Of a stretch of DNA of 64,000 bases, positions 52,601 to 58,600 are shown one piece after another. The stretch is taken from positions 29,804,535 to 29,868,534 of the forward strand of contig OY783203.1 of assembly GCA_963678705.1 (NCBI GenBank). The letters are read 5' to 3'. Positions within the stretch are counted from its first letter, which is position 1; every line of letters starts with the position of its first letter. The stretch comes from Panorpa germanica (Eukaryota; Arthropoda; Insecta; Mecoptera; Panorpidae). Below the pieces are notes generated by a model. That model ran no database searches. It had not been told where the DNA came from and saw only the letters and a program-made list of their open reading frames with translations. The translations under genes were made by a program, and so were the position numbers.

Positions 52601-55600
52601 CTGTACGTATAAAATTGCACTTTAAGAATTTTGCACTTTACATTTTTAGATAATTTTTACGAAGTCATTTGCACTTTACATTTTTAGATAATTTTTACGA
52701 AGTCATTTGCACTTTACATTTTTAGATAATTTTTACGAAGTCATATTAACAAATGGTTAAAATATTAATATGTCGTTAAATACTCTTAAAAGGTCTAGGT
52801 TAATATAATGGAATACTTAGACCTCTAAATATTGAAAATATAACTTTTACTGAATTATGATGCAGTGTGGGACGCGTTATAACATTTTGGTGCATCTTAG
52901 CTATAACTCATAAACAAAGAGAATCTGTTAATTAATTTACTATAATTATGCTTTTCAGGTATTGCAATTGATTCGTCAGATGGTAAGGACATGTCTCTCG
53001 TGAAGAAGACCGGCAAAGTTAAGTTATTGGAAGAGGAAATTAATTCACGTACGTATATTATATAACCCTGATTATAATATTTAATTTCAAATTTATTGAC
53101 CGTTACGAATAATTCTTATTTAATTTTTATAGGAGAGAAGGATTTGGGATTCACTGAAACAACCACCAGCCATGTAGGAATTGCACATACTCGGTGGGCA
53201 ACCCATGGAGTTCCCAATGAAATTAACTCACATCCTCAACGCTCTGATGAACAGCATTCGTTTGTTGTTGTGCATAATGGCATTGTAACCAACTACAAAG
53301 AAGTAAGTTCACATAACGACTCAATTTTCATTGTACTATCTTAACTTAGTTTCGATGTTATTGCAATAAATAAGTTATTATTTATATAAACAAATATAAT
53401 ATGTAAAGTTTTCTGGTTTCTTAGTTCAGTCGCTTCGAATTTTTAGATGTTAAATTTTTTATTTCAAAGGTTAAGAAATTCCTGGAAAATAAGGGCTACC
53501 ACTTTGAGTCTGACACTGACACCGAAATAATTGCGAAGCTGGTTTACCATATATACAAACAACACCCAAATTACTCATTCCGTGAATTGGTCGAACAAGT
53601 AATTTCACAATTGGTAAGTAATTAGCATTTCACTAGACACATAACGAGCAGGCGTTTTTTCATGGTTTAGATCTCGACTAAAATTGTCGCACAATTTTAA
53701 CTTTTTACACTTGATAACAAATCAAGATTTAGATTTAAAAGTAATTCTATCGTAGTAACATTTAGATCACTCTTTTAATATAGTCTAGTCCAAAATTCAA
53801 TAATTATTTATTAATATATTTCTTTTTGAATGAAATGCAGGAAGGAGCCTTCGCTTTGTGCTTCAAGTCTAAACATTTTCCTGGAGAATGTGTCGCAACT
53901 CGTCGTGGTTCACCTCTGCTTGTTGGCATTAAAACAAAGACACGTTTGGCTACAGATCATGTACCGATTCTTTATGGAAAAGGTAAAAATACTGAAAATT
54001 GTGGGAATATAACACTACTAAAGAATTAGTTAGAAATTTAAGCAAATATTTTTAAATGTATGTAGTTAGAGTATTATTTTACTGTTATATATTAGGATTC
54101 CCAACATGCAGCGCCAGCAACGTGATGTCTTCATATAGTTCATACATAAAACAGAAACAACGCAAATTTAAACTAACCTTAGAGTAAAAATAAAATATTA
54201 CTCTACCAGAAAGTCTCTGTGTGTAATATTATTTAACAATATGTTATATTAGCTTGTCACTAATATTTTATGTATTTTGTTGTTTTTAATTTGCCTATGC
54301 ATGAACTAACGTTTTATTATAAGATTTAATATTTATTTTATAATTTATTTAAGTTACTAATTTATTTATGTTTGTTATTTAATTAACTTTTCCATGGTGC
54401 CCCCTTGATTGATTTGACCCTTCCCTTTGACTTGTTTGAACCTCTCTGTTGGATCTCACAGATGACCGCAATGTGAAGAAAGGTATACCTTGGTTCCTGT
54501 GTTAAATAAAATCATGTCAGTCATTATCCTTCACACTTAGAGACCTATTCTGTAACTCTTTTACGGGCAACTGCTCTTCTGAAAATTTTTCAAACCTCTA
54601 TATTTTCTAAATTGGCTACTTAAGTTTTAAGGCATTAAACAGAGTGCAAAATAAGTTCTATACCTAATAAGCTAATTTTAGAAATATAGGCTTTTCAAAA
54701 ATCGTCAGAAGGTAACGGACGCCTGATCAAGAGTTATGAAATAGGGATCTTTGTTTCAAGTAATCATCCGATTGTTATTTAGTTTGGGTGCTAATATACA
54801 ATCTACTTTTTAAATGAAAAGTTTTGTACAGTTTTAGTTTATGTACTCCTTGTAATAATCAGTCCTGTTTCTTCGTAGGTAACTCTAAAATGCTTTGTCT
54901 CTTTTGAAATTGTTTTTTTTAATTTTTATTTGTCTTGTGTTAACAAACAATTTTGGTCATGTTAATAAAACTATCATAAGTTAATTGTATATATTTAAGA
55001 AAATTTTGTATTTAAATTTTATTATATATATATATACATGTATTATATATACATACATATATATATATATACATATAAACATATATACATATTACTTTTT
55101 TTATAAGGTGATTGCAAAAAAATTCGATTGATGATTTTTTAAAATAATATAATTTAATTTTTTTCTTTACCTCCCTATTGTAATTATTTGATAATATTTA
55201 TTTACTGATTTGCTATTTTTCAGTAGTTCATTAATGTATAATAAAAAACTGTAGATTTCAATTTGATCTTAAGCTGAAAGAGAGAGAGACTCCATATTAA
55301 AACTGAATTAAATAATTATTTCTATATTATTATTATCATTCAGTGATCTTATGAAGCTCATCATTGGTTGTGATCTTAGAAAATCAAAATTTTATATAAA
55401 TTACTGAAACCTACTGATTTTAAGAGACATCAAAATCTAACATTTGAAAATTTCTTATAACTTTTAAATTTTTTTGCAACTCCAACATTTATCACATGTC
55501 ACTCATGATGTTGAAATGTTATTTTGTGTTTTACACTCGACTAATTTTTGCTTTCTTTATTTGTTTTTTCTTTACTAGATGCTGATGCTGCTAGTCACCC

Positions 55601-58600
55601 AGGTACACGCAAGTTTATTTTTCATCAAACGCTTTTTACGCTTAAAATTTAGCTGTGCTTTACTCATTTTTAACGTATTAGTTAAAAGAAACGTTTTACT
55701 CTCTGTGCTTTTTGAATTATTATAAGTATTTAATTGTAAGAGTGCCTCACGCGTTTCTTTATTACTTTTAAGTTATGTCAATGACTTTCTTATTGTTATT
55801 AGTTTTAGGTATCGTTGTTTCTTAAATTATTTTTTGATCAGTACTAATCGTTGAAATGAAAGTTTATTTTTAAATTATGAAACTATAATCTGCTTACTTC
55901 CACCTATTCCCACTAGATGGCAGTAGTGCATATAAGGAATTAAATTCTATTTAACGATAATAATATTTTGTTGTAAACAATGTACAAGATAAACTTATAA
56001 CTAATAACTTAGCGCACGAGGCAAAATATTAAACATCATGTAGGTTTTCATTCATTTACTTCAACATTCACAATTATTATTTTAATCAAACGTAATTTAA
56101 AGTCGACCTATTTACGATGCTGACTCCTATCACCAACGACCTCTTACAATGTTTGCAGTATTTTTAAGATGTCGTGTTCTCATATACGTGGACTACACCG
56201 CTGTAAAATACATAAATGCTCTCGGTCATTTATGTCGCTTGAATATTTCATTTAAAAATCCGCAGATTTCTCTTTTATCTAGCGTAAATATATAAAATCG
56301 GAAAATAAACTTTATTTAGTAAAATTTGTATAATCTTCCACTGGTGGTCTCTGTACAAAATAGACTAATTTATTTTTAACTTCTTGTAATCTTGTTGATT
56401 GTATATTAGAAGTAAAAGATAAATACATACATTTCCGGAAGAGGAGCTTTGATTTTCCATAAAATCTTTTCTTCTGTAGAATGCGTTATTAAATTTTTAA
56501 TATACGAGTATCAGTCGCCAAAACGTGATCAATATCTTAGGCTAGTATTCTATTGAACCATTTCCACTTATAATCATTATAGAACCCATGAGTAGAATCA
56601 CTGTATTATTATAAATATATTTAAAATGTAATGTGATAAATGTTTTTAATACCAGTAAACAGTAGTAGTCTTGTAAACACAAACGTAACACTTATATAGC
56701 AGATACGTTTAAACAATACGTAGACAATATGTAAATGCTATATTATTGTGTTTAGTTGGCACAAGTAGTTTTCATAAGTAATTAATATTTCACCAAGCGC
56801 AGATAGTTCTACACATACTTTCCCATTACTTCCCATTATTAAATCTAATCAGTAATAAATCATCTAACTTTGATCTCAGATTTACTATTTCAGATTCATT
56901 CCATTTGTTCATCAGCAAGCTGCGATATGGGGATAAGCACTTATCTATTTATTAGATATGTATTTTTGGAATATGTGTTAACACTATATAATTGTATTTT
57001 ATTTCATTTTATAGGTAAAAAGTATTGGTGAACGGTGCTGGCTTCAATTTATGTTACACTTGCTTACTATTTCATTCTTCAAAAGTATTTAATCGTATTA
57101 TAAATTAATTTGTGTTATTTTGTAGAAATATTGCTGTGCTTATCACGGTAGTGGTTTAAATTATGATTAACAATCTTAAGTGACCTCCAGAATGGCCCTT
57201 AATATGGATATAATTAATTTTATTATCGCCTACATAAATTTAAAAAAAAACGTAGTTGTGTTAAAAACTTAGTAATATTTTACATATATTTGATTAATTT
57301 TTTAATGTAAAATGCTATATATATTTATGTAAATTAAACGTAGAATTTGCATAAATTGTTTTATATAAAAAACAATTAATGAAACATATTTACATATATA
57401 TTACAGGTTACACAAATATTTTATGTAACCTATAATATTTTTTATGTAAAAATGTATATATATATCTTCAGTAAACGAATTTTGGGGGTCACTGTAACCG
57501 AAATACATAATTATTCTTTTGGTTACTATGTCAAAAACATGTAGAACTTTCTGCTCTGTAGTAGGGTATAACTACTTGATCGTTCAATTTACTTTTATTC
57601 CACACTCTGGTGCGACTGACTTGTACTATTTCCCTATTAAATCTCCAAATAATTTTAATAGCCAACAAAAAATATTAATAAACAATTTGTACAAATGTAT
57701 AGTTCCTTTACTCCTTGACAATTGAATTCCAAGTTTGAATAATCAAATCTCCTAAAATAATTATATTTACCTAAGGTAGTGGTCAATATTCGTATATGCT
57801 CGACATTTGTCGATAATAAGCCAATGTAAAATTTAAGTAAATTAAATGTTAATGCTAATAGTTAATGGTAAATTAGATGTTTTTCTAACTGTTTTAATTA
57901 TTTTAATAATTTATCAATAGCATAATCGTTACCGCTACAACAATAAATTTATTTTAAAATTTTACAGTTTAACTTTTGTAAATTTTTTTTTCCTGAATTA
58001 CATTTTCTCAAGTCAAGAATAAGTAAAATAAATCTCCAATTCATTGATATCCAATCAAAATTTGTCCTATAGGCTACTTCTGAAAAATAAGACATGAACT
58101 ATTACGTACTGTACGTGAGAATCACTTTGAAAACACTTAGACTAATTCCTGAATCTTGTAGCTTTTGTATTCAAATATATGTTAATATTTTGAAATAGAA
58201 AGAATGTGTGTAGACAAAAATATATATTTGTGCGTATATATGTAAAATTATATTTAGTCAGATTGTTACCGGATATCTTTAATATGTTTGGAAGATTTCT
58301 GTTACAGGATTATATCTTCAGAGTCACACTTACCACCTCTCTACTACTTCTATAAAAAGTTAATAAAACATTGAATTTGTCGACAACAATTCTACTTTAC
58401 TGATGCTGGTAGTGAAACAAACCATTACAAAGTTTGATGCTCAAATTCTTATCGTAGAATATGCTCTCATAAATTTAAGAGTGGCTATCTTTTATTAAAT
58501 GAAAACGTTCATTTTTTTAAAGCTCGTGTATATAATGACATACAAATTAGTGGTTTTCGGCGACATGAAAATGCATCATCAGTTAGAAAGATATATTTGA

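Follow-up and report, generated by a model that had tools for sequence, protein, structure and literature searches.

Gene structure and microexons

The window, a 64,000-nucleotide (nt) stretch of Panorpa germanica (Mecoptera) DNA (contig OY783203.1, positions 29,804,535 to 29,868,534), contains one GFAT gene on the + strand, the product of which controls sugar entry into chitin, glycan, and O-GlcNAc synthesis. A long intron of this gene (53983 to 59225, +; window positions throughout) encloses two short segments, microexon 1 (ME1; 54462 to 54482, +) and microexon 2 (ME2; 55579 to 55602, +), which are most likely genuine coding exons of GFAT. The window protein matches human GFAT-1 strongly through the C terminus (phmmer E value, 8.3e-285) and carries the Pfam GATase_6 and SIS domains, as befits a member of GFAT.

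ME1 (21 nt; cacag ATGACCGCAATGTGAAGAAAG gtatac, with the donor context AAG gtatac) adds DDRNVKK, and ME2 (24 nt; actag ATGCTGATGCTGCTAGTCACCCAG gtacac) adds DADAASHP. Both are within the length of ≤30 nt set for microexons (PMC8042270, as excerpted). Their sequence, frame, position, and phase are read directly from the DNA: each has AG/GT bounds, is open in frame, and has phase 1-1. A sequence-only reading of the window had given these coordinates, lengths, phases, and peptides exactly, and its 5.2-kb intron measures 5,243 nt, dividing into introns of 479, 1,096, and 3,623 nt when both microexons are used. Because both segments are phase 1-1 and free of stops, the GFAT frame is kept in all four splice combinations, which run open to the native stop and give proteins of 678 (skip), 685, 686, or 693 (both) amino acids (aa), with the presumed MC start included. 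Every combination has D or E as its junction residue, because the G left over in phase 1 is completed by either AT or AA. A repeat search of 53800 to 59500 (≥20 nt) tied no repeat to either microexon, as exon duplication would have left, and the 181-nt surroundings of ME1 match only themselves in the genome, giving no sign of a transposable-element origin.

The coding exon upstream of the microexons (53841 to 53982, +) ends in ...DHVPILYGK plus one codon base (phase 1), as placed by frame and by alignment with human GFAT-1, and its donor reads AAG gtaaaaat. The downstream coding exon (59226 to 59386, +), placed in the same way, carries the remainder of a loop (EHRPHG...), the RSES site, and further glutaminase domain. 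The 5' coding exons lie at 49733 to 49840, 52959 to 53048, 53133 to 53302, and 53470 to 53613 (+), and the probable first coding piece is ATGTGTG followed by gtgagt (37602 to 37608, +; MC plus G), at the only + strand site of the window that fits ATGTGYGGT. The last coding exons (59460 to 60143, 60218 to 60373, 60497 to 60760, and 60840 to 60951, +), supported by the Pfam SIS match and the human alignment, encode the end of the glutaminase domain, the true interdomain linker, the SIS isomerase domain, and the stop.

Evidence above chance

Three observations raise the microexons above chance: the AG-free stretches before their acceptors, the codons of ME2, and the residue numbers of Drosophila Gfat1. 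The stretch leading to the ME1 acceptor (54352 to 54461, +) holds 106 nt without AG, and that leading to the ME2 acceptor (55425 to 55578, +), which includes a polypyrimidine tract, holds 150 nt. Among the 205 AG-to-AG gaps in the intron, four are at least 106 nt and one is at least 150 nt; the ME2 acceptor closes the longest, and the ME1 acceptor closes one of two 106-nt gaps. The probability that two random AGs would both fall at such gaps is 3e-4 to 3e-3, varying with the conditioning; when only pyrimidine-rich YAG sites are considered, 3 of 46 remain, with a P of ∼0.003 for both. The codon log-odds of ME2 are strongly gene-like, being equalled by only 0.07% of open intron segments.

Splice sites were scored with a generic insect matrix and with a gene-trained matrix built from the 10 constitutive junctions of this gene, where the constitutive donors are also the training set, which favors their scores. 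Generic scoring covered 12 acceptors and nine constitutive donors, with one other exon start there off by 1 base. With the generic matrix the ME1 acceptor scored 7.0, the highest of the 12, and that of ME2 scored 1.4; with the gene-trained matrix ME1 scored −0.2, below 9 of the 10 constitutive acceptors (range, −0.7 to 6.7), and ME2 scored 3.0, in midrange. Whether the sequence-only reading was right to call the acceptor tracts “good” thus varies with the matrix.

A scan for AG...GT segments of 9 to 51 nt, a multiple of three in length and open in phase 1, returned 88 candidates in the intron, of which the microexons have the 2nd and 4th highest generic scores; three candidates reach both minimum scores of the pair (generic matrix). 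The same scan was applied to 300 dinucleotide shuffles and to 21 equal-sized tiles (9 from the + strand between 1 and 49000 and 12 from the − strand). When an AG-free stretch of at least 106 nt is added to the passing scores, two candidates remain in this intron, the microexons themselves, and none in two further GFAT introns of phase 1; at least one such candidate occurs in 1 of the 300 shuffles and 1 of the 21 tiles, and two occur in none of either. The top generic splice score of the intron belongs to a third in-frame candidate (57565 to 57609; 45 nt, phase 1-1), which was set aside because of an extra AG 1 nt before its acceptor and a mostly hydrophobic peptide.

Lesions in Drosophila Gfat1 have been placed at Tyr334, A414, Gln535, L588, and C656 (text of PMC8834284, available in part). 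When these five numbers were slid over the skip form of the window protein, only 1 of 16 registers (one per cysteine) fitted all five. The fitting register is offset by 16 from the skip form and by 1 from the form with both microexons and implies a fly protein of 694 aa. The legend of Figure 4 in the same source gives Glu535 and L566M where the text gives Gln535 and L588M; the window residues at the legend places are Q and M, and the text values fit where those of the legend do not.

An unverified version of the fly Gfat1 sequence has 694 residues with all five landmarks in place. Since RR(G/S)SPLL (194) and LY(A/G)K (217) are numbered there as in the window, the extra residues of this fly protein would lie in the loop that receives the microexons.

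Location of the insertion in the enzyme

The insertion point aligns after T228 of human GFAT-1 (228/229), inside the glutaminase domain, and ∼54 more codons of that domain follow in the exon from 59226 to 59386. In the crystal structure of the human enzyme, residues 228 to 239 are described as an unmodelled, flexible loop of the glutaminase domain, and the interdomain linker tied to UDP-GlcNAc inhibition includes Gln307 (PMC7000685, as excerpted), ∼80 residues beyond the loop. The sequence-only reading had placed the microexons in the interdomain linker, between the two halves of the enzyme; this label is wrong in detail, because glutaminase codons continue past the insertion and the linker lies later. 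The insertion also separates two kinase sites, the serine of the PKA site (window S197, human S205, RRGS) and that of the AMPK site (window skip-form S240, human S243, RSES); the site names follow the accessible portions of PMC8041777 and PMC8834284. Counted from the conserved LY motif to the conserved RSES motif, the loop would have 18, 25, 26, or 33 residues, according to the combination.

The same position is used in mammals. A patient splice mutation, c.686-2A>G, disrupts the muscle isoform of GFPT1 (PMC6121184, as excerpted), which implies that exon 9 opens with base 2 of codon 229, in phase 1. The insect intron aligns at the same human codon, in the same phase, so that the parallel drawn by the sequence-only reading with the GFPT1 muscle insert concerns corresponding introns. 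That reading had called the insert a vertebrate one; according to the available text of PMC10514471, the muscle exon is spliced alternatively in mammals only. Judged from this alignment, the positional parallel with the mammalian muscle exon is real. No likeness of the insect peptides to an unverified human exon 9 peptide was seen (ME1 scores 7 and ME2 scores 4, with other candidates reaching 15).

Genomic surroundings and copy number

In the 464-Mb genome, the SIS family matched two places, both within this GFAT gene, and the upstream exon matched one place, itself. No GFAT paralogue or retrocopy was therefore seen. Among viral contigs, five stretches fitted the search pattern and none encoded a relative; among genome contigs, relatives were found in 7 of 46 stretches, all in records labelled bacterial and at ≤43% identity, with no insect sequence among them. 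None of 4,227 Rfam families matched the window at the gathering threshold.

A short distance 5' of the probable first GFAT exon lies a single-exon open reading frame of 164 aa (35439 to 35933) with a RING finger (Pfam zf-RING_2, 4.5e-9). An element at 47819 to 48617 (ends judged by eye) has terminal inverted repeats that start with cagtagggcctcg, and a − strand frame within it (48053 to 48424) encodes a CENP-B N-terminal DNA-binding domain (E value, 1.3e-6). The element looks like the remnant of a Tigger/pogo-type transposon inside the presumed first GFAT intron. The intron preceding the exon at 52959 contains a tandem array of ∼38-nt units, in part grouped into higher-order units of 222 nt (51325 to 52744), and part of the 38-nt unit recurs in an inverted copy near 49200 to 49235 (by eye).

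Interpretation and alternative explanations

Several results weigh against ME1 and ME2 being exons at all. With the gene-trained matrix both donors (ME1, −0.8; ME2, 3.0) score lower than any of the 10 constitutive ones (3.6 to 8.4), and the ME1 donor is the weakest under both matrices; its generic score of 0.1 is below those of all nine constitutive donors, and the 2.6 of ME2 exceeds two of the nine. At least two candidates as good as the pair by score occur in 14 of the 300 shuffles and 7 of the 21 tiles, which is near background, and the gene-trained matrix passes 4 of 88 candidates here (5.2 kb) versus 10 of 208 and 2 of 14 in the two other phase-1 introns (12 in 15.2 kb), a density not above theirs. 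Splice signal and frame are consequently weak evidence, because tiles and other introns give comparable candidates. The AG-gap criterion was post hoc, picked after inspection, and the codon log-odds of ME1, equalled by 5% of open intron segments, are unremarkable. The printed fly numbers tell how many residues precede position 334 but not where they are added, and some of the 16 residues could sit elsewhere; the window protein is itself 8 residues shorter than the human one before the PKA site. In the unverified fly sequence the loop reads DD.../DAD..., and this version is not independent of the sequence-only reading. Of the 88 candidates, the 4 best matches to this loop are the 4 with the ME1 or ME2 acceptor, and composition-shuffled ME1 and ME2 peptides match it equally well in 6,431 and 2,573 of 20,000 cases. 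Such matches being frequent, the loop letters add little, and only the length argument is independent.

If both segments were AG...GT decoys that arose by chance in this long and AT-rich intron, the sole mRNA would encode the skip form of 678 aa. Such decoys would account for the comparable in-frame pairs in the tiles and for the similar density in other GFAT introns, and the 45-nt candidate at 57565 to 57609 outscores both microexons; the AG-free stretches, the gene-like codons of ME2, and the fly length match point the other way and make this explanation improbable. A constitutive use of both microexons, with a 693-aa enzyme from every transcript and no regulation, is a minority possibility of more substance. 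It agrees with the fly numbering (PMC8834284, as excerpted), which comes within 1 residue of the both-included length and would make the long form at least normal in the fly, and constitutively spliced microexons have also been described in flies (PMC8042270, as excerpted). In the fly survey of the latter source, such microexons have donors that exceed the one before them in strength. Here both microexon donors (−0.8 and 3.0, gene-trained) fall short of the upstream one (3.6), and this weakness leans toward optional use, as does the symmetric phase; nine Gfat1 transcripts are listed in FlyBase, according to the accessible text of PMC8834284.

We infer that ME1 and ME2 are exons in optional (cassette) use, which on balance is probable because they combine symmetric phase 1-1 and weak donors with a long intron. 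Inclusion would add 7 and 8 residues to the flexible glutaminase loop (human 228 to 239), and optional inclusion would make all four loop lengths available to the enzyme. With both active sites untouched, inclusion would most plausibly tune domain coupling, kinase access, or feedback inhibition. We tentatively propose, as a reading with rather less than even chances, that regulated exons have repeatedly come to occupy the intron at human codon 229 and that insects set loop length combinatorially with two microexons. Tissues or stages would thereby differ in how feedback inhibition or kinases control the flux of chitin precursors, in a manner unrelated to the mammalian muscle exon.

If the microexons are regulated, the tissue could be neuronal instead of muscle, under the eMIC/Srrm program; this alternative concerns tissue alone and is compatible with optional use. 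Fly eMIC exons are described as combining an extended AG exclusion zone, a CUAAY branch site, a UGC close to the acceptor, and a weak donor with very short introns on either side and an acceptor of extreme weakness (PMC8797185, as excerpted). Both microexons have the long AG exclusion (106 and 150 nt) and a CTAAT motif, at 54357 for ME1 (A at −102, distant) and at 55541 for ME2 (A at −35). ME2, with TGCT at 55549, shows the first four of the fly features, and ME1 has no UGC within 60 nt of its acceptor (read by eye). The flanking introns here are long, in contrast to those of fly eMIC exons, and neither acceptor is of the extremely weak kind, that of ME1 being the best by the generic matrix and that of ME2 in midrange by the gene-trained one; a neuronal eMIC program is unlikely. 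The hexamer TGCATG (Rbfox) occurs once in the intron, at 54298, upstream of ME1, and was not used as evidence.

The finding is not categorically new. No report on insect GFAT microexons appeared among the literature matches listed, and nothing was found that pairs GFAT with microexons. If the loop variants exist and differ in feedback sensitivity, insects and mammals would use the same intron, with different exons, for the same control, and loop length would be directly testable as a tuning device. If both microexons are constitutive, this is an ordinary gene merely needing correct annotation.

Comparison with known systems

ME1 and ME2 share with insect and vertebrate microexons, including those of the eMIC/Srrm set, their length, a multiple of three nucleotides, AG exclusion, a branch-site motif, and weak donors. 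They differ in their long flanking introns and in belonging to a metabolic gene. The Gfat1 of Drosophila melanogaster (zeppelin, CG12449), compared here by residue numbers from PMC8834284 (as excerpted), with the letters of its loop from the unverified sequence, has an implied length of 694 aa, versus 693 aa for the window form that includes both microexons.

The closest counterpart in position is exon 9 of mammalian GFPT1. The two systems have in common a symmetric optional exon (presumed in the insect), the same intron slot and phase, a weak donor, and extension of the same glutaminase loop. In mammals there is a single exon of 54 nt (48 nt in mouse), with alternative use reported as mammal-specific, for which regulators and kinetics have been described. 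The resulting isoform, GFPT1-L, is less active and more strongly inhibited by feedback, and its exon has a weak donor (PMC10514471, as excerpted). By analogy, a role like that of GFPT1-L is possible for the insect microexons.

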